Shown: positions 10,967 to 31,774 of the stretch, in pieces | Layout of the letters: the number at the start of each line of letters is the position of its first letter | How positions within the stretch are numbered: the stretch's first letter is position 1 | Position numbers and translations under genes: made by a program | Assembly: GCA_947471985.1 (NCBI GenBank) | Contig: CANIZL010000081.1 | Coordinates: forward strand, 1 to 32,188 | Source: Verrucomicrobiota bacterium | GTDB taxonomy: Bacteria > Verrucomicrobiota > Verrucomicrobiia > Limisphaerales > UBA9464 | Direction of reading: 5' to 3' | Length of the DNA: 32,188 nucleotides | Notes under the pieces: generated by a model | Databases searched by the model: none | The model's input: the letters and a program-made list of their open reading frames with translations, nothing else | Told to the model about the DNA's origin: nothing

Positions 10967-14500
<3,534 letters not shown>

Positions 14501-15370: not shown

Positions 15371-18300
15371 TTATTGGGCCACCGCCCGGAAATAGCGTTG
15401 GGCCTGTCCGGCGGGCACCTCGAGAAGACCGGACGACAAGCCGGTCTGCACGGTCTGCCACGCTTGCAAATCATCCGACGCCTCCAAGCGGACCAGTTGC
15501 CCGGGACTGTGCAGAAGTCGCAATTGCAGCCGACCGTCCACGACCGCGGGCTCAGACCACGCCACCGGCAAAACCAAGTCGCTTTCCCCGCGTCCCGGGG
15601 AACCGAAGGGATCCAAACTCGCCCGCCAATCCGTCGCCACCGAACTGTTCGCGGGGGCACCGGGCCGGGGCACCAGACTCCGCCCGGTATCCACCACCGA
15701 CGTCGGCCACGGCGCCCGGGCGCCGTAGGTGACGGAGAACACCGGCGCCGCTCCCACCCGCGGCAACACCGCAATGCTGTCCCCGGAATTCGACAGCGAA
15801 CGGCTGTAGGGCCCCAAAACCGGCACCGTGCGCGGCAGGCGATGGTAGGCGCGGAGTCCGCTCGCACTGCCGGACCGCGTCACCACCAGATACCCATTCG
15901 GTGGCAGCACCGTCCCGGTCGGGAACGGGTAGTCGATGCCCCCCGCCAGCACCACGCCCTCGAGATTCAGGCTCCGAAACAGATTCCGATTATGCAGCTC
16001 AATGAATTCATATCCGCCGGTGGCCGGGGCGTACAAAATCTCCGTCAGCTCCAGATTCTCCCGCAACGCCGCCGTCGGATCGGCCACGCCCGCCGTGAAT
16101 TCCACCGGAGCCGACCAGTGACTCGCCCGCCCCGTGGCATCCCAATGCCGCACCCGCGCGCGGTAAAGCCGTCCCGCCCGGAGAAATTCGCCGGGCACCG
16201 TGATGTTCCGCGTAGGCTGCGCAAATCGGGGCGATTCCCAGGCCGCCTGAATCTCGTAATGCCAGGGTTTCCCCGCTTCATAGCCGGGATGATCCAAACG
16301 GGTGATCTCCGCGATACGATACTGCACCGACCCAAATCCATCCACTCCTTCAAACCGGCTGGACGTGAATCGCAGCGCATCACTCGGGAAACCGTCCGGA
16401 CCGCTATACTGCAACTCCGGGGTCGTCGGAATATTCACCTCGCGGGCAATCGTATCCAAAGAGTACGTGGTACTGGTGGCCCGGAATTTGACGTAATTCT
16501 TCATGAGCTGAACCATTCCGGCGAAGGTCTTGGACCCGACGCCTTTCTGATAAAACCGGCCCGTCCCCGCCTTGCTCGCCAGGGTGATGGAGCCATTGAG
16601 CATCACCGGATTGTAATCCCATTGCGCCCGATCGGCGTCGGTGAAGGAAACCAGATTGGTTCCGTGGATCAGCAACGCCTGCTCATCGATGACCTGCCCC
16701 GCCTGCTCGGGATTGAACAACAGATCGCGCACCTCCCGGACGCGATTGCGAAATTCCCGACGGATATTGGGCAGACGATTGCCCGTCCAATTGAACCCGT
16801 TGAGCACGGGCGTCAGAAACGGTTCAAAGCCCGACCGGTTTCCTCCCCGGTACATGCTGTCCGCCCAGGTCAGATCCAGATCCCACGGTTGCACCGACCA
16901 TTGGCCGGTCGCGCTGTTGTGGTAGTAAAAATAATTCTTCCCGTCCTGGATGTCGTAGTGATGGATTCCCTGCAGGATGATCTGGTAACCGAAATACGAC
17001 GGCAGATTGAGGTTGGTGCGCCACCAGGATTCCGAAAGGCTTCCACTGTTCGCTCCGGTATAGGTCCCCAGGAACGTGCTCAAATCCGAGGAATCCACCG
17101 GCCCATCCTGTCCGAGATGATTCGGGGCGCCGAAGAAGTTCTCCATGTCATAGATATTCCCATCCGGCAAACCCCGCTCATCCAACCAACGACCGTCCTG
17201 TTCCTCCACCGCGAGATACTTGCCCCAAAGATCGCCATTGAACTGATTCGCCGCCGGCGCCTCCTCCGCGCGATCCACCACCCGGAGCTGCACATGAACA
17301 CAGTTGTTGGCATCGGTGCCCGCGAGTTGAAACAGCCGATAACCCACACTCTCAAACAGTCCCTGTTCCCCCCGGTGTTCGTAGTCACCCTGCTGGATAT
17401 CGGGACGCAGGCTGAGCTTGCCCCACGTGACATTGAAAGGCCCGCCCCAGTTGTTCTGCATCGCCAGTTCGTGTCCGTGATTGAAGTCGAATTTCCAGGC
17501 GTTCTTCCCCATGGAATACCGCCACACACCGCCCCGCATGCGGAAATGAATATGATCGTAAACCGTGCCCTGATACACCAAGGCCCCGGTCCAGAGATAA
17601 TCATCGCCGCGATACTGATTATTCGGCTTGCCGGGCGACCACCCGGTGGCGACCAGCACCTCGGATTCCCGCGCGATCAGGTGGAAGGTCGGCAGCCGAT
17701 TCATCTCTTCGGCCGGCACCGTGAAGGGTTGCCCCAACACCCCCGCCACCCCGGGACGCACGGCGCCCGTCCACGCCGGAACACCGTTATAAACAAAATA
17801 GGCGAAATTCGGACAGGTATCATCCGGCAGCGGCGCCCGAACCACGGCCCCGAGGGTGTCCTTGGCGATGAACCGATACCGAACCATTCGTCGATGCTGC
17901 TGCACCTCCGCAGGCAGCGTGACCTGATAATCCTGGGTGTTGACCGGAACCATCGTCACCCGCGTCCACTGGGTCGCGTAGGCGGGATCGTTGCTCTGAA
18001 TGAAACTGCCCGGCTCCACGATCTGGTACTCGACCTCCACCGAGGCCACGCCATCGGGATCCTCCGCCCGCACGGTCAGGACCACGGGTTCCCCCGCGTG
18101 CGGCACCTGCGGCGAGTGACCGGCCTTCGAAAGCGCGGGGGGCGCATTCACGATCTGCACCGAATTACGTCGCCCCGGACTGGGCGCCGCACTACTCGGA
18201 CGCCAATGGCCGCCGAGACTGTTGTCCAAGGCGGGATTGAGCAACTCGAGGGAGGCATCCGTGACCCCACCCACCGTCGGCCACGGGAAGGAGCGACCGA

Positions 18301-18703
18301 AATCCACCACCTGCACCTCCTGATTGCCGGGATTGAACAAGCGCAGCCGATCGTTCTCGCTGCTCAACGTTCCGACCCACGGACCCACCACATTGGTCGC
18401 CGCATAACGAAGTCGAACCCGGGCGGGATTCTGCGCGATGACAACGAAGCCCCCGGCCGGCAGCGTGGCCCCGCCGGCAAAGGTGTAATCGACCCCGCCC
18501 GCGAGCCGCCACCCCGCCAGCGGAACAGCCGCGCCGGAGCGATTGTGCAGCTCAACGAACTCGGACCGCTCCTGGCGGGGCACGGGTGAATGATGGATTT
18601 CATTGATCACCAACGGCGCCTCCGCCGCCATCAGCGAACCGACCGAGGCCAGTGCCAGCGACCGCGCCAACGACGCAACGCGCAGGAAAGGAGAGGAGAA
18701 CAC
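15371..18703 (-). CDS. Secreted CotH-kinase-like protein with two lamin-tail domains
   Basis: The protein has about 1110 residues. A lamin-tail domain (PLVINEIHHSPVPRQERSEF onward, ~30-150) is followed by an Ig/fibronectin-like region, then a large CotH-related region. That region contains YDHIHFRMRGGVWRYSMGKN, KFDFNHGHELAM, LAGTDANNCVHVQLRV, YYYHNSATGQW and VQPWDLDLTWADSMY, whose Asp residues fit the CotH metal and catalytic sites. A second lamin-tail domain comes near 885-1000 (LELTEILYAPATGGYEFIEL), with the same LAGGxDYxF motif as the first, then a C-terminal beta segment. CotH kinases phosphorylate secreted proteins in spore formers; a role here is inference only. The open frame extends to 18814 through a REP-like repeat. 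The GTG at 18703 gives a good signal peptide (LARSLALASVGSLMAAEA), so it is preferred; an alternative GTG or TTG lies slightly upstream. Confidence 0.83.
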   Translation of the reverse strand: MFSSPFLRVASLARSLALASVGSLMAAEAPLVINEIHHSPVPRQERSEFVELHNRSGAAVPLAGWRLAGGVDYTFAGGATLPAGGFVVIAQNPARVRLRYAATNVVGPWVGTLSSENDRLRLFNPGNQEVQVVDFGRSFPWPTVGGVTDASLELLNPALDNSLGGHWRPSSAAPSPGRRNSVQIVNAPPALSKAGHSPQVPHAGEPVVLTVRAEDPDGVASVEVEYQIVEPGSFIQSNDPAYATQWTRVTMVPVNTQDYQVTLPAEVQQHRRMVRYRFIAKDTLGAVVRAPLPDDTCPNFAYFVYNGVPAWTGAVRPGVAGVLGQPFTVPAEEMNRLPTFHLIARESEVLVATGWSPGKPNNQYRGDDYLWTGALVYQGTVYDHIHFRMRGGVWRYSMGKNAWKFDFNHGHELAMQNNWGGPFNVTWGKLSLRPDIQQGDYEHRGEQGLFESVGYRLFQLAGTDANNCVHVQLRVVDRAEEAPAANQFNGDLWGKYLAVEEQDGRWLDERGLPDGNIYDMENFFGAPNHLGQDGPVDSSDLSTFLGTYTGANSGSLSESWWRTNLNLPSYFGYQIILQGIHHYDIQDGKNYFYYHNSATGQWSVQPWDLDLTWADSMYRGGNRSGFEPFLTPVLNGFNWTGNRLPNIRREFRNRVREVRDLLFNPEQAGQVIDEQALLIHGTNLVSFTDADRAQWDYNPVMLNGSITLASKAGTGRFYQKGVGSKTFAGMVQLMKNYVKFRATSTTYSLDTIAREVNIPTTPELQYSGPDGFPSDALRFTSSRFEGVDGFGSVQYRIAEITRLDHPGYEAGKPWHYEIQAAWESPRFAQPTRNITVPGEFLRAGRLYRARVRHWDATGRASHWSAPVEFTAGVADPTAALRENLELTEILYAPATGGYEFIELHNRNLFRSLNLEGVVLAGGIDYPFPTGTVLPPNGYLVVTRSGSASGLRAYHRLPRTVPVLGPYSRSLSNSGDSIAVLPRVGAAPVFSVTYGARAPWPTSVVDTGRSLVPRPGAPANSSVATDWRASLDPFGSPGRGESDLVLPVAWSEPAVVDGRLQLRLLHSPGQLVRLEASDDLQAWQTVQTGLSSGLLEVPAGQAQRYFRAVAQ

Positions 18704-18747
18704 CTGGCGACCGTATACCAATCGGTCCACGGACTCAACCCGGGCCC

Positions 18748-18809
18748 AGGGTGGCAGCGCCTTCCCGGCGCTGTTCGTCAAACCAGCGGCGGGACGCCGC
18801 TGCCACCCT
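18748..18809. repeat. Twin-hairpin REP-like element (full copy)
   Basis: Two perfect hairpins lie side by side: CAGCGCC, TTCCC, GGCGCTG (18755-18773) and CAGCGGCG, GGA, CGCCGCTG (18784-18802). The ends of the element are themselves a 12-base inverted repeat (AGGGTGGCAGCG at 18748-18759 and CGCTGCCACCCT at 18798-18809). The second half recurs exactly at 21992-22018. The structure resembles paired REP sequences (BIMEs). It sits between the divergent CotH and helicase genes. Confidence 0.8.
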
Positions 18810-18892
18810 CCCATTCGGCCAGTCCGGAGTGCCCACTGTCTCCGAAGAATCCCGCTGTTTCCTCCGTAACATTCTGCGCCACAATTATCGGG

Positions 18893-21751
18893 ATGGAGGT
18901 TAGCGCCAAGACTCGCCGGCTTGCACGGTTCCTGGGTTGTTCCGAGACACTCCTGACCATCAGTGCCGGGCTGCTGCGGATTGCCGGCCCCGGCGACGAA
19001 GTCGCGGTCGATCTGACCTCCCTAAAGGACTTTCAGGTCAAGCAGCGCTGGTTGTGGAGTGATGTCTCGGTCACGACCCCGGACGGCTTTACCCAGGTAC
19101 TGCGAGGTTTCCCGAAAGCAGACGCCGAGCGCCTTTCGGTAATCGCCCGGCTGCATTCGCTGGATCCCGCCGTGACCAAACTCCTGGACGAATATGCCGC
19201 CGTCCGAGGCTATTTAACGAAGTCGCAGCAGGAGTCCTGGATCAATCGGGCCGCTCCTCTGACCACTCTTCTCACGGATCAACTCGGCAATCCGTCGTTG
19301 CCGACCGAACCTGTCCGCCGACTTCGCCAGCTCCGGGAGATCGTGAAGGGTGGTGAAGCCACCCGAACGGCCCGAAACGCGCTTTACGTGCAGCAGCAGC
19401 GGGCAAAGCATGCGGACCTATTCTCTGGCGGGCTGGGCTATCCTCTCAATTACGATCAAATGGAAGCCATCCTGCACGATGAGGATCGCGCTCTGGTTGT
19501 AGCGGGCGCCGGCTCCGGGAAGACCAGTACAATTATCGGCAAAACGCTGCATTTACTACGTGAGGGATTGGCCACCGAACGGGAGATCCTACTCGTCGCT
19601 TACACCCGCAAGGCTGCCGAAGAAATGGAGGAGCGATTAGCCTCCTTCTCGGTCACCGGGCTCTCGGTGAAAACGTTCCACGCCTTGGGGAATGAAGGCA
19701 TTGCCCAGGCGACGGGCAAAAAGCCCAGCATTTCTAAATTGGCGGAGGACAACTGGGCACTACCGGGCGCCATCAAGAACTTCGTCAGTGAAATCATCAG
19801 CGACCGATCCCAACAGCTTTCCCTGACAGAATACCTCGCCCATTTCCGCTATGCGTATCGCGCACCGGAATCCTTTCCCACAGAACATGCCTATCTCCAG
19901 CACATCCAGGGGCAGAACGTTCGAACCCTGCGCGGCGAGCAGGTGAAAAGCGTGGAGGAGTGCATGATCGCCGATTGGCTCACCACTCACGGAATCCGCT
20001 ACGAGTACGAGCGCCGCTACGAACACGACACCGCATCGATCCAGTATCGGCAATACCAACCGGACTTTTTTCTACCCGACTACGACATCTACCTCGAGCA
20101 CTTTGGCATCAATCGGAAGGGACAACCTGCTCCATTCGTCGACGATCCCCAAGGTTACCGCGACGGAATCGCCTGGAAGCGGGAGCTGCATCAAAGGCAC
20201 CGCACCAAACTCATCGAAACCTTCTCCTATTTCGCGGCGGAGGGTCGTCTCACTGAGGAGCTTGAACGGCTCCTGCGCTCCGCCGGCGTGAGCATTTCCG
20301 CGATAAATCCCGACGAATTCGTTCCCTTGCTCACCCAAAACGACGTTCTCGAACCTTTTGTCCAAACGGTCACAACGTTTCTCAACCTCTACAAGGCGAA
20401 CGGCTGGACGGTGTCCGAAGTTCGCCGACGGGCCGCGGACGCAGGAAACACCCGCGCGCTAAAGTTCCTCGAAATTTTCCACACCATTTTCGCGAAGTAC
20501 GAAGCCGCCCTGCAACGGGAGGGCGCCATTGATTTCCATGACATGATCAATGAGACGGTCGCCCATATCCGAAGCGGGCGCTTCTCACCCGGTTATCGGT
20601 ACGTTTTGGTCGATGAATTTCAGGATATCTCCCGCGGGCGGGCCCGTTTGATTCAGGCGCTCTTGGAACAAGTACCGGAGGCCCGGCTTTTCGCAGTGGG
20701 GGACGACTGGCAATCCATCTACCGTTTCGCCGGGAGTGACATCGATTTGATGACGCGCTTCGCGGAGCATTTTGGCCACACCCGGCGAACCGATCTGCGG
20801 ACCACCCACCGCTTTAATAAACGGCTTCTGCAAGCCAGTTCGCAGTTTGTCTCAGCCAACCCGCAGCAATTGGCGAAGCAGCTGATCGCGACCCGGGAAC
20901 GACTGACCCCGGCGATGGCCGTTGTCGCCGGCCCAAGAGTCGGAAGGGCGAAGGGTGAAGGGGCCGACTCCTCGGGTAACCCGGGTTTATTGTCCCGCAC
21001 CCTCGAGGCCATTGCCCGGGAAACTACCGCGGACAGGGTCGATGTTTTGGTCATGAGTCGGTACCACCATGTCCACCGGGGCCAACAAACGGTAGAGCTG
21101 CCCGACCGCCGCTTGAAGCTGCGCTTTCTGACGGTGCATGCCGCGAAGGGGTTGGAGGCGGATTACGCGATTATTCTCGAAGTGGTCCGGGGAAAATTCG
21201 GCTTCCCCAATGAAATCGCAGATGACCCGTTGCTGGATCTCGTCTTGGCCGGTGAAGGCGCGTTTCCTCATGCGGAAGAACGCCGACTTTTCTACGTCGC
21301 GCTGACGCGGGCTCGCCACAAAACCTTCATCCTCACGGAGACCCAGCGGCGTTCCGTATTCGTGGACGAGCTCGAAGGCGACACCTTTCGAGAATTGGTT
21401 ATCCCGTCGAGGGATCACCGGGAATCTCCGACCTGTCCTCGCTGCAAGGGAGGGCAGTTGTTACACCGCCACGGCAAATGGGGTCCGTTCTATGGCTGTT
21501 CCAATTATCCACTCTGTGAATCCATTGCTGAGCTGTGTCCCGAATGTGAATCCGGCGCCCTCGTCCGGGGACAGGACACGTTTTCCTGCTCCAATTCAAA
21601 ATGTGGCCATCGCCAACCGGTGTGTCCCAGTTGCCGGGTGGGCGCTCTCGTGCCCCGCCAGGGACCGTGGGGAAAATTTCTCGGCTGCACCCAGTGGAGA
21701 GCCAACGGTGTGTCCTGTAACTTCACGCGTAACATCCGCCCTCCCTCATAG
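18893..21751 (+). CDS. helD: Helicase IV-like (HelD) UvrD-family DNA helicase with C-terminal zinc fingers
   Basis: The 952-residue protein has an N-terminal HelD-type domain (~1-180, including FQVKQRWLWSDVSVTTPDGF), then an SF1 helicase core. Core motifs are Walker A GAGSGKT (205-211), AYTRKAAEEM, DEFQD (574-578), GDDWQSIYRF (603-612), TVHAAKGLEAD (747-757) and VALTRAR (802-808). An insert at ~355-450 carries QYQPDFFLPDYDIYLEHFG and KLIETFSYF; it recalls a PD-(D/E)XK-like fold seen in many helicase IV relatives. After residue 847 come three CxxC-type topoisomerase-like zinc fingers (CPRCKGG, CPECESG, CPSCRVG). The role is DNA unwinding in repair. The ATG at 18893 matches the usual N-terminus; the open frame to 18590 includes the REP repeat and CotH antisense. 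No strong ribosome site is visible. Confidence 0.9.
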   Translation: MEVSAKTRRLARFLGCSETLLTISAGLLRIAGPGDEVAVDLTSLKDFQVKQRWLWSDVSVTTPDGFTQVLRGFPKADAERLSVIARLHSLDPAVTKLLDEYAAVRGYLTKSQQESWINRAAPLTTLLTDQLGNPSLPTEPVRRLRQLREIVKGGEATRTARNALYVQQQRAKHADLFSGGLGYPLNYDQMEAILHDEDRALVVAGAGSGKTSTIIGKTLHLLREGLATEREILLVAYTRKAAEEMEERLASFSVTGLSVKTFHALGNEGIAQATGKKPSISKLAEDNWALPGAIKNFVSEIISDRSQQLSLTEYLAHFRYAYRAPESFPTEHAYLQHIQGQNVRTLRGEQVKSVEECMIADWLTTHGIRYEYERRYEHDTASIQYRQYQPDFFLPDYDIYLEHFGINRKGQPAPFVDDPQGYRDGIAWKRELHQRHRTKLIETFSYFAAEGRLTEELERLLRSAGVSISAINPDEFVPLLTQNDVLEPFVQTVTTFLNLYKANGWTVSEVRRRAADAGNTRALKFLEIFHTIFAKYEAALQREGAIDFHDMINETVAHIRSGRFSPGYRYVLVDEFQDISRGRARLIQALLEQVPEARLFAVGDDWQSIYRFAGSDIDLMTRFAEHFGHTRRTDLRTTHRFNKRLLQASSQFVSANPQQLAKQLIATRERLTPAMAVVAGPRVGRAKGEGADSSGNPGLLSRTLEAIARETTADRVDVLVMSRYHHVHRGQQTVELPDRRLKLRFLTVHAAKGLEADYAIILEVVRGKFGFPNEIADDPLLDLVLAGEGAFPHAEERRLFYVALTRARHKTFILTETQRRSVFVDELEGDTFRELVIPSRDHRESPTCPRCKGGQLLHRHGKWGPFYGCSNYPLCESIAELCPECESGALVRGQDTFSCSNSKCGHRQPVCPSCRVGALVPRQGPWGKFLGCTQWRANGVSCNFTRNIRPPS

Positions 21752-21760
21752 TCCCGAACA

Positions 21761-21985
21761 TGAATTCACCCTTTTCCATCCGCATTTTCCTTCCGGGCGG
21801 GGATCCGGACGGTTTGCGGACCATCGAGATATCCAACTGGAGTGGACGGGTGTCGCCATACCCCGGGCCTTGACGGGAACGGCGAGGCGGCGTCCGAATC
21901 TGGCGCGCAGCGGGGTTTACATGCTCGTGGGGCCCGCGGAGGAGTCCGCCCTGCCGACTATTTAAGTGGGCGATTTCCAGGCTCC
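21761..21985 (+). pseudogene. Broken GIY-YIG nuclease-like gene
   Basis: The ATG at 21761 opens MNSPFSIRIFLPGGDPDGLR then TIEISNW, the typical start of a bacterial GIY-YIG family protein. After about 21838 the homologous reading moves to the next frame: EWTGVAIPRALTG, then LARSGVYMLVGPAEESALPT. GVY is the GIY element. A TAA at 21963-21965 stands where the Tyr of the YVG/YIG element is expected, followed by GTG GGC GAT (VGD). Homology then stops close to the REP repeat at 21992. So there is one frameshift, one nonsense codon and a 3' truncation, leaving about a quarter of the gene. The family assignment is from memory of the conserved N-terminus. Confidence 0.75.
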
Positions 21986-21991
21986 GGGCCC

Positions 21992-22018
21992 AAACCAGCG
22001 GCGGGACGCCGCTGCCAC
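21992..22018. repeat. REP-like element (half copy)
   Basis: These 27 bases are identical to 18780-18806: AAACCAGCGGCG, GGA, then CGCCGCTGCCAC, a perfect hairpin. The other half of the twin element is absent. It lies immediately after the truncated GIY-YIG gene and before the stop of the minus-strand DUF4239 gene. Confidence 0.8.
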
Positions 22019-22039: not shown

Positions 22040-22819
22040 TCACGGCGACGGCGTTCGTTCCAGACTTGTCTGCAAATCCAACATGGGCTGCTGGCCGACC
22101 CGAATCAGGCCCTTGCGCGGATGATCCATGTCGATGATCGCCCAAAGCGTTCCGGCGATGAGAAAGGCCAGGGCCGTCGTCAGCACCTCATTGCGCTTGC
22201 CCGCCACCCCGCAGCCGTAACCCACCGAGGCGACCGATACGGCGGAACAGGTGATCAACAACCCCAGCAAAACCATCGGCATGTGCCGGGCCGACGCCGC
22301 CACCCGCGATCCATGCAGATCGATCAACTCGTTGACCGGCGGCAGCAGGACGTCCGCCCGTTCCGGCGCCGCCTTGGACACCCGCACAAACAACGCCCAG
22401 ATGCGCCGCTGCAACGCCTCCGATTCCGTGACGGCGACCCCGCGCGCCGCCGGATCCGTCGCGTTATAGAAGCCGATGCGCGCGGCTGTGTAAGCGCGCA
22501 ACAACTTGCGGGTCGCCTCCCGCTCCGCCTCCGGCAGCAGATCGCACCGCAACCAAACGGTGCCAATGGAATTGGCTTCGCGGTTGATCAATTGGACCCG
22601 ATCATTGAAACGACCCGCGGCCAGCGCGAAACTGAAACCCAGCAGCAACGCAAGCAGCCCCAACGTTGCCCCCTGAATGTTGGACAGAGGATCCGGGTGA
22701 TCCGACCGCCGTTGGCGGGCCCGGGTGCCGAGGCGAAACCAAAGTTCCAAACACACCAGCAAACCCAGGAACAGCCCCACAGCGGTCAAAACGTCGAGAA
22801 AGATGGAGGCGGGAAACAT
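22040..22819 (-). CDS. DUF4239 (bestrophin-like) membrane protein
   Basis: The 259-residue protein has two N-terminal membrane helices (FLDVLTAVGLFLGLLVCLEL and ATLGLLALLLGFSFALAAGR). A soluble middle follows with VQLINREANSIGTVWLRCDL and LRAYTAARIGFYN, then two C-terminal helices (PMVLLGLLITCSAVSVASVG and TTALAFLIAGTLWAIIDMDH, PRKG). This is the DUF4239 plan, including the NREANxIGT element and DxDxPRxG near the end; the family is related to bestrophin-like channels and its function is unknown. The open frame extends to 23116, but the extra part is antisense to a real gene, so the ATG at 22819 is used. No strong ribosome site is visible. Confidence 0.8.
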   Translation of the reverse strand: MFPASIFLDVLTAVGLFLGLLVCLELWFRLGTRARQRRSDHPDPLSNIQGATLGLLALLLGFSFALAAGRFNDRVQLINREANSIGTVWLRCDLLPEAEREATRKLLRAYTAARIGFYNATDPAARGVAVTESEALQRRIWALFVRVSKAAPERADVLLPPVNELIDLHGSRVAASARHMPMVLLGLLITCSAVSVASVGYGCGVAGKRNEVLTTALAFLIAGTLWAIIDMDHPRKGLIRVGQQPMLDLQTSLERTPSP

Positions 22820-22959
22820 ACGACCCGACGCAGGATATCCAAGAATGCCGTCCGCTGGCCAGAAAATTGAAAACACCTGCCGGGGTCCGCCACGCCCATG
22901 CGCCCCCCCCCGGCCCGAGCGGGCCCGAGCCGGCCCCGGTAGCGGCCGCACAGACCGCG
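22820..22959. other. GC-rich gap with C tract and short repeats
   Basis: No gene is seen. Near 22905-22945 there is a run of about ten C, then GGCCCGAGC occurring twice in succession, then CCGGCCCCGG. This could fold strongly just beyond the DUF4242 stop and may act as a terminator, but no T tract follows. Confidence 0.25.
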
Positions 22960-23235
22960 CTAGGCTTCCGCTGTGGTAGGATCGATGATGCTTTTCACCT
23001 CGGAGACCCGGTTGGCCGGGAAGCCGCCCTGCTTCGCGTGCTCGCGCACAGTCGCCTCGTCCGGGGCGATATACACGCAATAGACCTTGTCGTCGGTGAC
23101 ATAACTTTCGAGCCATTGAATCTGTGGCCCGAGTCGGCTGAGGACACCGCAGGACGTCTGCGAGATGCCCCGCAATTGTTCCGGGGTGAGTTTCCCGGCT
23201 CCGGCGATTTCACGTTCGATGAGGTATTTTGGCAT
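22960..23235 (-). CDS. DUF4242 small protein (SCO4226-like)
   Basis: This 91-residue protein reads MPKYLIEREIAGAGKLTPEQ, then WLESYVTDDKVYCVYIAPDE and VREHAKQGGFPANRVSEVKS, ending IIDPTTAEA. This is the DUF4242 ferredoxin-like alpha/beta barrel; the Streptomyces member SCO4226 binds nickel. Met1, the ExE element and the HA.QGGFP segment are conserved. A role in metal binding is family inference only. The start at 23235 is the first Met of the conserved block; the longer open frame to 23340 is the tail of a DUF1501 fragment read through in the same frame. Confidence 0.85.
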   Translation of the reverse strand: MPKYLIEREIAGAGKLTPEQLRGISQTSCGVLSRLGPQIQWLESYVTDDKVYCVYIAPDEATVREHAKQGGFPANRVSEVKSIIDPTTAEA

Positions 23236-28615: not shown

Positions 28616-31600
28616 CTAAACTGTCCGCGCCGCCTCAAATAGCGCTGCAGGGATGGGATGGGCGAGTTCCCAGACAAAGGAAATGGGGCGATTGCCTTCG
28701 GCGCTGATGAGATGATTAACGGGGCCAAGGAAGATGAAGGGAGCGGTCTCGTCTTCGATGTTCTTTTCCAGTCGGGCGAAAAACAGGATGGTGTACCCGC
28801 GTTCCTGATACTTGAGGAGGTTTTGTCCGCTGGGGCTGATTTGCGTTGTGGTGGATTGGCTTTCCCAGTGCAGTTGCGTGCGGCTTATTGGATAGTCCCG
28901 ATACTGGGTCGTGGGAGAAAAATCCCGATCGGATTTCCGAAACGTTACGAGATGAATGTAGCATTTGAGGGATTCGGCGTGGAAAACACCAACACCTGTG
29001 GGTCCGGATCGTTCCAGTGTGCAGAGGCCGAATGCCGTTTTGACTTCGGCGGAACCATAGGCCGCATGGAGATGGAGTTGGCAGGGGAACGGCAATTGGA
29101 TCGGAGGAGTAGGATAAGCGTGTTGCCGTTGGACGTAATCGACGATTTCTCTAAGGTCGCGCATCGCGGTCGGATTCCGGCGCCATTTGTCCAATGACTG
29201 GGCTAGTGTGGACACTCCAATGTCGCTGCCCTTCTTTCCCCACAGGAGGTAGTGGAGCAGGAGAGCGTCCGTATCGCTGGTGGGTTCAGTGTGGCCGTCG
29301 AGATTGGGTTTGTCGGCGGCAAACGCCGCCAGTTTCGCCAGTGTTTCTGGGTCGGTTCGAAGCAGGATGCGACGATGAGCTTGTCGGCAGGCTTTAAGGT
29401 CTGGGTCAGCCGGCAGCTGGGCGTGGTGAGCGAGGGCTTGCCATTCGGACCACGACTTGTTTCTCAGAAGCTCGAGTGGCGAGATGCCGGTGGCGCGAAT
29501 GAAGTTCGTGAAGGTTGGGGGGCAGTCGTGGTCCTGACGGAAGGTCGCGATGCTTTCGGTGACGAGTGTGGCCAGGTTCTTAAGGTTCTCGCGGATATTG
29601 GCCAGAACGTGCTCGCGGGCTATCCGTTCGAGTTGAATGTTGCAACCGGGCGGAAGATGTGGGAAGTCGTTCTCGGCTTCCTGATCCATGCGCTGACGAT
29701 CGCGGGTCAGTAGAGTCGCAAACTTGCGGTCGATTCGGTATCGGCGGTGGCTCTGGCCGATGAAATCAAGGACCGTGAGGCATTCCTTGTCTCGATGGTG
29801 GCGAAGCCCGCGCCCTAGTTGCTGGAGAAAGACCGTAAGGCTTTCGGTGGGGCGGAGGAACATTACGAGGTTTATCTCCGGCACGTCCACGCCTTCGCTG
29901 AACACATCCACCGTGAAGACATAGGGTAGGTGTCCGGCGCGGAAGTCGCGGACACGTTCGGCGCGGACGTCACCTGGCGTGTCGCCGACGATGACTGCGG
30001 CTTTCAGCCCTTTTTGGTTGAAGGCGGCGGCCATGAAAGTGGCGTGGTCCACACTGGCGCAGAAACCGATGCAGCGAACCTGGCTGAGGTCGGGTTGGTA
30101 TCGGCGGAGGCTGGTGAGAATGACGTCAAGGCGCTGGCGGGCGCGAAGATCATCGCCGGTGTAGACTGCCGTAAGGGCGGTAACGTCATACTTACCGGCT
30201 TTCCAGAAGCGTTCGTCGGCGAGTGGGACAGGGTCGGTGACCCCAAAATAGTGGAAAGGACAGAGCAGCTTTTCTTCGAGCGCTTCAGGAAGGCGGATTT
30301 CGGCGGTAAACTCGCCCCCGAAGTCCGGCAGGATTGACGAACCATCCATACGTTCGGGTGTGGCGGTAAGCCCGAGTAAGACTGTCGGTTTGTAATGTTC
30401 AAAGATCGGTCGGTAGCTGTTGGCGCTGCTGTGGTGCGCTTCGTCGATGACGATGAACGGGTAACGGACGGCATCGGCGTGGATCCAAGGCTTCACCGAG
30501 TTCAGGCTTTGGACGGAGGCGAAGAGGTAGCGCCAGTCCTGCGGGAGTTCGCCGCCAATAAGGATTTCGCCGAAATTGGGATCCCGGAGGAGGGTGCGGA
30601 AGCAGTCGCGGGCTTGTTCGAGGATTTCTCGACGGTGGGCGACGAAGAGGAGCGCGGGCCGTGGCGCGGTTGGAGAGAGGGAGGTGGCGTGAGCGACGAA
30701 GCGGGCGTAGTCGAAACCGGCGACGACGGTCTTTCCGGTGCCGGTGGCGGCAACGACGAGGTTGCGGGACTGACCAGCGGCACGCGCGGCGGCGAGGGCT
30801 TCGAGGATGCGTTCCTGGAAAGGATGCGGGCGCAGGTCCGCGAAGAAGCGGCGTTCGGTTCGGTTGTCTCCAATTCTGGCGTGCCGGATGGCGTCTGAGA
30901 GTCGGTTGGCCTGGGTCGCGTCATAGGATTCAAAATCGGGACTGGCCCAGTAAGTCGAGAACTCGGCGGTGAAGCGTTGGAGGATATGGGGAAGGTCGTG
31001 CTCGGTGACTTTGACGGTCCACTCGAGGCCGCTGGTCATGGCGGCCTGAGACATATTGGCGGAGCCGATGTAAGCAGCGGAAAAGCCGCTGCTACGGTGG
31101 AAGTGGTAGGCCTTGGCGTGGAGACGGGTGCGCTCAGTGTCGTAGGAAACCTTGACCGAGACGCCCGGAAGATCGGCAAGCCAAGCGATGGCGGCGGGAT
31201 CGGAGGCGCCCATGTAGGACGTCGTGACGATGCGCACAGGTATATTGCGGACAGCAAGGGCTTTAAAAGCCGGTTGAAGCAGTCGGAGGCCGGACCATTT
31301 GACGAATGAGACGAGGATATCGACGCGGTCGGCAGTGGCCATTTCCTGCCGCAGTTCGTGCTCGAGTTGTGGGTCGTGGCGGGCGCCTGTAAGAAGGCTG
31401 CTGGTGGTGAGTGGCGTCTCGGGACGTTTGAGCGCAGGCGGGATGGCTTCGCCGGGACCGGGGACTTGAAGGGAAAGGAGGACTGGCGCGGAGGAGCCGA
31501 GCAGAGTCTTTCGTTGGAGGTAGTCGAGACCGTCGGTAGCGGCGATGAGCTCGATCAGGCGATTGACGAGCGGGAGTCGTTCATCCGGACTTCGGGTGCG

Positions 31601-31774
31601 CAACGCATGGGCGAGGAGATGGGAGACAAACTGACTGTAGGCGTGGGGGGTGTCTTCGTCGTCCAGTTTGCCGAGCAAAGACTTGAGCTCGGGTTGAGCG
31701 GTCAGTGCCTCGGCGAGTTCAGTGTCGAGCAGTTGCTCGTAAAGACCTGGGACCAAGCGAGCAGCGGCAGGCAT
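28616..31774 (-). CDS. PLD-nuclease / SF2 helicase with DUF3427 C-terminus
   Basis: The 1052-residue protein has an N-terminal helical region (~1-125), then a phospholipase-D-like nuclease domain with LHAKAYHFH (His219, Lys221) and IGSANMSQAAMTSGLEW (from ~236). An SF2 helicase core follows: LRPHPFQERIL (Q-motif area), Walker A ATGTGKT (343-349), DEAH (444-447), LTATPERMD (~469-477), TVDVFSEGVDVPEINLVMFL, and QLGRGLRHH (652-660). The C-terminus fits DUF3427 (LKYQERGYTILFFARLEKN near the end). All key residues are present and there is no frameshift, so the gene looks intact. Relatives occur in restriction and defence loci and are presumed to cut or translocate on DNA, but activity is not established. 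The ATG at 31774 has AGGGA about 11 bases upstream. Confidence 0.92.
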   Translation of the reverse strand: MPAAARLVPGLYEQLLDTELAEALTAQPELKSLLGKLDDEDTPHAYSQFVSHLLAHALRTRSPDERLPLVNRLIELIAATDGLDYLQRKTLLGSSAPVLLSLQVPGPGEAIPPALKRPETPLTTSSLLTGARHDPQLEHELRQEMATADRVDILVSFVKWSGLRLLQPAFKALAVRNIPVRIVTTSYMGASDPAAIAWLADLPGVSVKVSYDTERTRLHAKAYHFHRSSGFSAAYIGSANMSQAAMTSGLEWTVKVTEHDLPHILQRFTAEFSTYWASPDFESYDATQANRLSDAIRHARIGDNRTERRFFADLRPHPFQERILEALAAARAAGQSRNLVVAATGTGKTVVAGFDYARFVAHATSLSPTAPRPALLFVAHRREILEQARDCFRTLLRDPNFGEILIGGELPQDWRYLFASVQSLNSVKPWIHADAVRYPFIVIDEAHHSSANSYRPIFEHYKPTVLLGLTATPERMDGSSILPDFGGEFTAEIRLPEALEEKLLCPFHYFGVTDPVPLADERFWKAGKYDVTALTAVYTGDDLRARQRLDVILTSLRRYQPDLSQVRCIGFCASVDHATFMAAAFNQKGLKAAVIVGDTPGDVRAERVRDFRAGHLPYVFTVDVFSEGVDVPEINLVMFLRPTESLTVFLQQLGRGLRHHRDKECLTVLDFIGQSHRRYRIDRKFATLLTRDRQRMDQEAENDFPHLPPGCNIQLERIAREHVLANIRENLKNLATLVTESIATFRQDHDCPPTFTNFIRATGISPLELLRNKSWSEWQALAHHAQLPADPDLKACRQAHRRILLRTDPETLAKLAAFAADKPNLDGHTEPTSDTDALLLHYLLWGKKGSDIGVSTLAQSLDKWRRNPTAMRDLREIVDYVQRQHAYPTPPIQLPFPCQLHLHAAYGSAEVKTAFGLCTLERSGPTGVGVFHAESLKCYIHLVTFRKSDRDFSPTTQYRDYPISRTQLHWESQSTTTQISPSGQNLLKYQERGYTILFFARLEKNIEDETAPFIFLGPVNHLISAEGNRPISFVWELAHPIPAALFEAARTV

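Follow-up and report, generated by a model that had tools for sequence, protein, structure and literature searches.

A probable orphan REPIN in a verrucomicrobial genome and a clade of RAYT transposases apparently housed within conserved host genes

What is the twin hairpin that lies between two genes of a verrucomicrobial contig, and what could have put it there? The contig, CANIZL010000081.1 of assembly GCA_947471985.1 (Verrucomicrobiota, order Limisphaerales), was analysed as a single window of 32,188 nucleotides. The element in question occupies positions 18748–18809 and has a half copy at 21991–22018. A first-pass annotation, made from the letters alone, had called it REP-like (REP, repetitive extragenic palindrome) and mobile. 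Our answer, to which we assign a probability of about 0.84, is that the full copy is a REP doublet forming a hairpin (REPIN), that the half copy is one REP on its own, and that both belong to a GTGG-tagged family that has a REP-associated tyrosine transposase (RAYT) system in relatives. By itself the window copy is ordinary, and it is probably an orphaned REPIN.

How is the element built? A repeat search and direct reading of 18748–18809, a feature without strand, reveal two inverted hairpins that face one another within a perfect 12-base inverted repeat (AGGGTGGCAGCG...CGCTGCCACCCT), just as the first-pass annotation had described. The arms, 18748–18773 and 18784–18809, are 88% complementary. 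Each hairpin has the build GTGGCA–stem–loop–stem–TG, and on both the GTGG tag is outermost. The left hairpin, GTGGCAGCGCCTTCCCGGCGCTG (18751–18773, plus strand), carries its tag at 18751–18754. The right hairpin, GTGGCAGCGGCGTCCCGCCGCTG in the minus-strand reading (18784–18806), carries its tag at 18803–18806 and is the unit of the family. Between them lies an unstranded linker (18774–18783) whose final five bases recur in the half copy. The latter (21991–22018, minus strand) is identical to 18779–18806, these five linker bases included; the identity that had been noted is real and extends over 28 bases, not 27. At up to three mismatches, the window has three occurrences of the 22-base core of the unit, of which the left hairpin needs all three mismatches, versus none in 100 shuffles. 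When the whole window was scanned for hairpins with a GTGG tag, both hairpins of the full element and the half copy came up, and no others. The window holds three examples of the short palindrome that characterizes REPs, with a tag of the GTAG type, here GTGG, and a stem of 7–8 bp.

The folding of the two copies differs. A 69-nt stretch spanning the full element folds far better than 200 shuffled sequences (z = −6.15 and −5.85 on the two strands, with none of the 200 as good), and its minimum-energy fold is one long hairpin rather than two. For a 32-nt stretch with the half copy the effect is modest (z = −2.05 and −2.12, with 10 and 9 of 200 shuffles as good). Only the full copy has the two inverted REPs, the spacer, the outward tags and the capacity to form a single hairpin that make a REPIN; the half copy lacks them and is a single REP. 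Between 15000 and 24000 of the window Rfam returned nothing above threshold. Its sole match there, to a microRNA family at 18742–18823, scored 29.2 of 100 bits, and we take it to be a chance product of the hairpin.

Is the unit repeated elsewhere? The genome that contains the window (G000) comprises 6.38 Mb in 180 contigs and is 96.25% complete. At up to three mismatches it holds 12 unit hairpins (three exact, six with one mismatch, one with two and two with three), against none for the reversed control pattern; the first-pass annotation had proposed such a count, with only two copies as the outcome that would speak against it. A looser pattern (four free positions, three mismatches) gave 39 hairpins versus 23 in the control, which adds little and is no clear excess. 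On one contig (C92) two unit hairpins share an orientation and are separated by 46 bases. The many copies per genome expected of a REP are therefore present; the family is small in G000 (12) and reaches 92 exact copies in the relative G001. At up to one mismatch the unit was found in 11 of 58 genomes, G000 included, with 115 copies in G001. The exact 22-mer, with G or T allowed at one position, occurs in 18 of the order's 320 genomes searched (G001, 92 copies; G091, 19; G045, 11; G000, 8), and the controls gave none.

Beyond the order, the exact 23-mer was found in at least 80 stretches from named genomes, mostly of Verrucomicrobiota, and also in bins labelled Planctomycetota, Lentisphaerae, Sumerlaeaceae, Acidobacteria, Desulfobacterales and Chromatiales. 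By eye, the anatomy GTGGCA–stem–TCY–stem'–TG, in pairs, is common to the family across 140 distinct contexts. Many of these have a partner hairpin of like build and different stem letters, for example GTGGCAGAGCCGTCTCGGCTCTG. When translated, the unit is in frame, and at matching positions, in an HsdM-like gene of L084, L089/L098, L078 and L124, and a REP-only unit insert is found at an HsdR site in L172. These host names, HsdM-like (MADEQ-type) and HsdR, are presumptive, given by eye. Overall, the unit or a near variant was seen in frame within restriction-modification genes of L084, L089, L124, L078 and L166, in some of them at the same site.

Is there a transposase that matches the unit? 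In G001 (contig C272) a Y1-type gene is flanked on both sides by exact units and itself holds two further in-frame copies. Five of the 18 unit-bearing genomes have the unit no more than 200 bases from a RAYT that resembles this one (G001:C272, G014:C98, G226:C65, G255:C44 and G163:C328); G014, G226 and G163 mostly carry a variant that differs in one base (T). In a tree of 52 RAYT domains, from which the G163 protein was left out, the four unit-flanked RAYTs form a single group (support 99/90). A protein search with the G001 RAYT found matches at 1e-8 in 20 of 58 relatives. A cognate RAYT, a further mark of REPINs, is thus present in relatives. Together with the 12 hairpins of G000 and the 18 of 320 genomes, these unit-flanked RAYTs support the proposal that the element is REP-like and mobile.

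Fold and family models agree that these proteins are RAYTs. An HVH motif and one tyrosine, which we take to be the catalytic tyrosine, are invariant across 45 RAYT rows, as expected of the HUH/tyrosine transposases. The NCBIfam model REP_Tyr_transpos matches with E = 1e-10, significant but under the curated cut-off in most proteins scanned (e.g. 41.7 of 80 bits; L327 reaches 82 of 80), and Pfam Y1_Tnp scores 24 against 23. A structure model of the G001 RAYT (pLDDT 81.4, pTM 0.70) retrieved, in a Foldseek search, the ISDra2 and IS608 transposases as well as the RAYT of a RAYT–REP complex, 4er8 (E = 1.8e-4, TM 0.59 by target).

The Y1_Tnp genes of G000 were considered as partners of the unit and rejected: they have other end repeats (of the GCCAGGCTCCCTAT type), and the unit is in none of 30 such loci. 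They make up a second, larger Y1-type family (e.g. L049 and L054) of 348 residues, with 38 Pfam matches including split ones. Its members are about 83–94% alike in DNA, and several copies lie at contig ends.

Where do the matching RAYTs reside? A search of the 320 genomes of the order with a RAYT alignment gave matches at 1e-15 in 141. Among the 47 best rows (at least 231 bits) 40 have open frames of at least 550 residues, versus 6 of the next 103 rows listed. Since long frames alone prove nothing in GC-rich DNA, we checked the hosts. In the tree 32 RAYT rows form a clade (support 98/97) that rests on a midpoint root, and the unit-flanked group falls within it. GTGG hairpins lie within 320 bases of 15 of the 32; a strict scan found none at the other 17, some of which have other repeats. 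In 22 of the 32 the RAYT has host protein before and after it in a single frame: the YoaA/DinG helicase in eight, ClpB in three, a fucokinase/pyrophosphorylase-like protein in three, an SNF2 helicase in two, DnaE in two, and PglX, HsdR, PriA and a methylase-like gene in one each. Family models match the host in 17 of these 22; for L274, L281, L291, L293 and L295 it was assigned by likeness to the model-matched hosts or by reading. As for the remainder, four (L228, L256, L290 and L286) have the host on one side and a contig end on the other; three (L288, L282 and L285) have the host on one side and a frame that stops near the RAYT, so that the host may be broken; and three (L227, L232 and L292) are free-standing. 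The window's unit or a variant of it is carried by L228, L279 and L288, all with HsdR.

In a sample of the phylum (387 genomes), 61 genomes match at 1e-60. Frames of at least 550 residues occur in 40 of the 89 rows listed, and free-standing genes are about equally common. Ten proteins were scanned, from 20 fetched loci. They place the RAYT inside LeuRS (three cases), PriA, HsdR and XseA; in a PglX-like protein, an adenosine deaminase, a RarA-type ATPase and a radical SAM protein the host matches clearly on one side only or the RAYT lies near an end. In L340 (G559:C9) the LeuRS–RAYT open frame runs to 2175 residues, more than both parts need. Is there a second, uninterrupted host gene? The RAYT-bearing leuS locus is the sole match in three of three genomes (97–98% complete), and dnaE gives a single match apiece in G278, G123, G122 and G036.

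What do the same sites look like in relatives? The genomes for the ClpB and DnaE sites were picked to include known RAYT carriers, so that the following are counts and not frequencies. For ClpB, 30 genomes of one genus yielded 25 close orthologues, 22 of them readable across the site: 15 are short (14–18 residues), three have in-frame inserts with a strong hairpin, one has a similar peptide without a hairpin, and three have a RAYT. For DnaE, 26 of 29 loci were read from 30 chosen genomes: 13 are short, four have hairpin inserts, six (G000 among them) are longer without a hairpin, and three have a RAYT; in a fourth DnaE–RAYT case, G036, the contig begins inside the RAYT. These classes follow thresholds that we set (insert length, and a perfect stem of 7). 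Two native short sites, L347 and L315, also have a perfect 7-base stem and seven longer inserts have none, and the hairpin-insert class is accordingly a guide to REPs and not proof of them. The DnaE RAYT of G278 is bracketed by two copies of one REPIN, GTGGCACGGGCGTCCCGCCCGTG and its partner. The ClpB alignment has a second insert of variable length near SPIIQEYF, in the C-terminal part (L289 and L304), with REP-like peptides. Among the RAYTs themselves dN/dS is 0.09–0.20 in seven pairs, one further pair being saturated, a sign that purifying selection acts on the inserted domain.

We regard it as likely, on the sequence evidence, that this RAYT clade lives as an in-frame, translated and unspliced domain of conserved or essential proteins (DnaE, LeuRS, ClpB, PriA), bounded by REP-encoded linkers, that the host gene expresses the transposase, and that inserts with REPs alone in these loops represent its non-autonomous derivatives. 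Most sampled RAYTs of the clade lie in conserved host genes between such linkers; translation would probably yield them as part of the host protein, host and RAYT forming one unspliced polypeptide.

Might the host instead be restored by splicing, as by an intein or intron, or might the fusions be artefacts of assembly or reading frame? Inteins likewise inhabit conserved DNA enzymes, and most of the genomes are draft bins. Against this, the NCBIfam and Pfam hits of the scanned RAYT–host proteins include no intein model, nor the Hint domain that would mark one, and nine in-gene RAYT loci gave no Rfam match, hence no known intron. The 17 model-matched hosts, in frame on both sides, come from one order, each type of host being represented by several contigs; a single site is known in short, insert-only and RAYT versions; and the dN/dS values are those of a constrained protein. 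We hold splicing or artefact to be doubtful. The comparative evidence is good that the partner system represents a new RAYT lifestyle, for which translation, cutting and movement are predictions.

How well does the reading of the window copies as REPIN and REP stand? Several observations weigh against it. No matching RAYT was found in the genome of the window: with the G001 protein eight candidates were scored and none matched at 1e-8, and with the RAYT alignment 10 of 44 candidates were scored and none matched at 1e-15. The first-pass annotation had advised looking for a RAYT, and in G000 none of the matching group was found. Thirteen of the 18 unit-bearing genomes have no unit-flanked RAYT among the matches listed, some of them rich in units (e.g. 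G045, 11 copies). The unit is absent from 60 other Y1_Tnp loci that were scanned (30 from G000 and 30 from relatives, the two unit-flanked genes not being among the 60). In G000 no copy other than that of the window forms a clear pair, and most are single. Many records of the unit are metagenome bins, and the odd phyla among them may be binning errors. Movement, finally, is deduced and not observed. Because no cognate RAYT was found in G000, we file the window copy as an orphan, and we hold with high confidence that the element is an orphan REPIN with a single REP.

An alternative is that the unit has spread chiefly by recombination and by horizontal transfer of carrier genes, above all those of type I restriction, and not by transposition. 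The presumptive HsdM-like gene has the unit at the same in-frame sites in L084, L089 and L124, and an HsdM-like start with the unit occurs also in the Chromatiales bin L166. Yet the copies in G001 and in G000 occupy many unrelated sites and the unit is associated with RAYTs, and we consider this account unlikely. A private local duplication would explain why the two window copies have five linker bases in common that the other G000 copies read do not have. It is decidedly improbable: the unit is found, at up to one mismatch, in at least seven other places of G000, and the flanks of the two copies diverge beyond the 28 bases. Could the element be an immobile local regulatory RNA hairpin, that is, a terminator, attenuator or mRNA stabilizer? 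Its fold is highly stable on both strands and it lies between called genes; but the unit occurs at many unrelated places and genomes, even within reading frames, the only Rfam match is the sub-threshold one, and no run of T follows the element in the sequence read. This we judge very improbable, while a secondary regulatory effect is possible. A miniature inverted-repeat transposable element that an ordinary insertion sequence mobilizes through its DDE transposase, suggested by the shortness, non-coding nature and terminal inverted repeats of the element, is hardly credible when the unit brackets Y1-type RAYTs in five genomes.

On the preferred reading of REPIN and RAYT, the transposase would nick single-stranded DNA at the hairpin tags by means of its HUH and tyrosine residues, and would mobilize the REPIN in trans, a mechanism already put forward for REPINs elsewhere. 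The single REP of the window would be a former REPIN that has lost one hairpin. The copies in G000 would be leftovers, or else would be awaiting a RAYT that the genome does not possess or that is missing from its assembly.

In the window the full copy sits between a minus-strand gene for an LTD/CotH protein (Pfam LTD and CotH; 15371–18814, the longest reading starting from an ATG at 18814) and a plus-strand gene for a UvrD/REP-type helicase with a C-terminal Top1 zinc ribbon (18893–21751). The genes do diverge, as had been noted, but the placing of the element between their starts is less secure: the CotH frame is open across the full element, and the start is therefore uncertain and may lie further down, which would make the element either leader or coding sequence. 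The half copy lies 30 bases past a plus-strand remnant broken over two frames (21761–21961; presumably GIY-YIG-like) and before the 3' end of a minus-strand bestrophin-like gene (22040–23116), so that the description of it as ending a dead gene is fair. Both copies lie between called genes, yet reading frames run open through them, and some units elsewhere are inside genes. The window also encodes a helicase with PLD and DUF3427 domains (28616–31774) and a PSD1/PSCyt protein (10967–14500).

If the in-gene residence of RAYTs is real, it would explain how RAYTs that are few in number, do not multiply and have no evident promoter are nevertheless retained, since the carrier genes are indispensable to the cell. 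It would supply a concrete source for in-gene REPs, known since Rickettsia and Opitutus, and would mean that loops of a replicative polymerase, a tRNA synthetase and a chaperone tolerate an entire transposase domain. This way of life for a mobile element seems to be undescribed; in the open PMC literature, subscription journals lying outside its scope, we found no paper on RAYTs inside host genes.

How do these elements compare with known systems? Inteins are in-frame inserts of conserved, mostly DNA- or tRNA-handling genes, have a nuclease-like domain and are missing in relatives. The in-gene RAYTs resemble them in all of these respects; unlike inteins, they have no splicing domain that we found, their linkers are encoded by REPs, and their nuclease is a Y1 HUH transposase. 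Rickettsia palindromic elements (RPE), too, are palindromes that interrupt protein genes without loss of the reading frame, whereas no RAYT is tied to RPE in the material compared. With REPINs and RAYTs as set out in the sections compared of Bertels and Rainey (2011; PMC3116915), the present system has in common the inverted REP pairs with a spacer and outward tags, solitary REPs that are remnants, a RAYT with this repeat on its flanks, and repeats that outnumber the transposase. There, REPs occupy extragenic space and RAYTs are separate genes; here, RAYTs of the matching clade are mostly in frame within other genes. Similar, too, are the GTAG REPs of Opitutus terrae, treated in the portion used here of Di Nocera et al. 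(2013; PMC3733652), which counts GTGG as a variant of the GTAG tag and also names the RPE. In that verrucomicrobial genome, too, there are GTGG-tagged REPs, and REPs and REP pairs lie in reading frames, many of them of DNA synthesis and repair genes, with loops proposed as neutral sites; the likeness is one of general description. The Opitutus inserts are REP-only, of 20–30 and up to 82 residues, and that portion of the paper reports no in-gene RAYT. Finally, the TnpA-Y1 classification (PMC6006769), as far as the excerpts consulted extend, deals with the same HUH/Y1 superfamily and discarded unexpectedly long proteins as gene fusions or annotation errors. That step may have hidden cases of in-gene RAYTs, and our results warn annotators against dismissing long RAYT proteins as mere errors.

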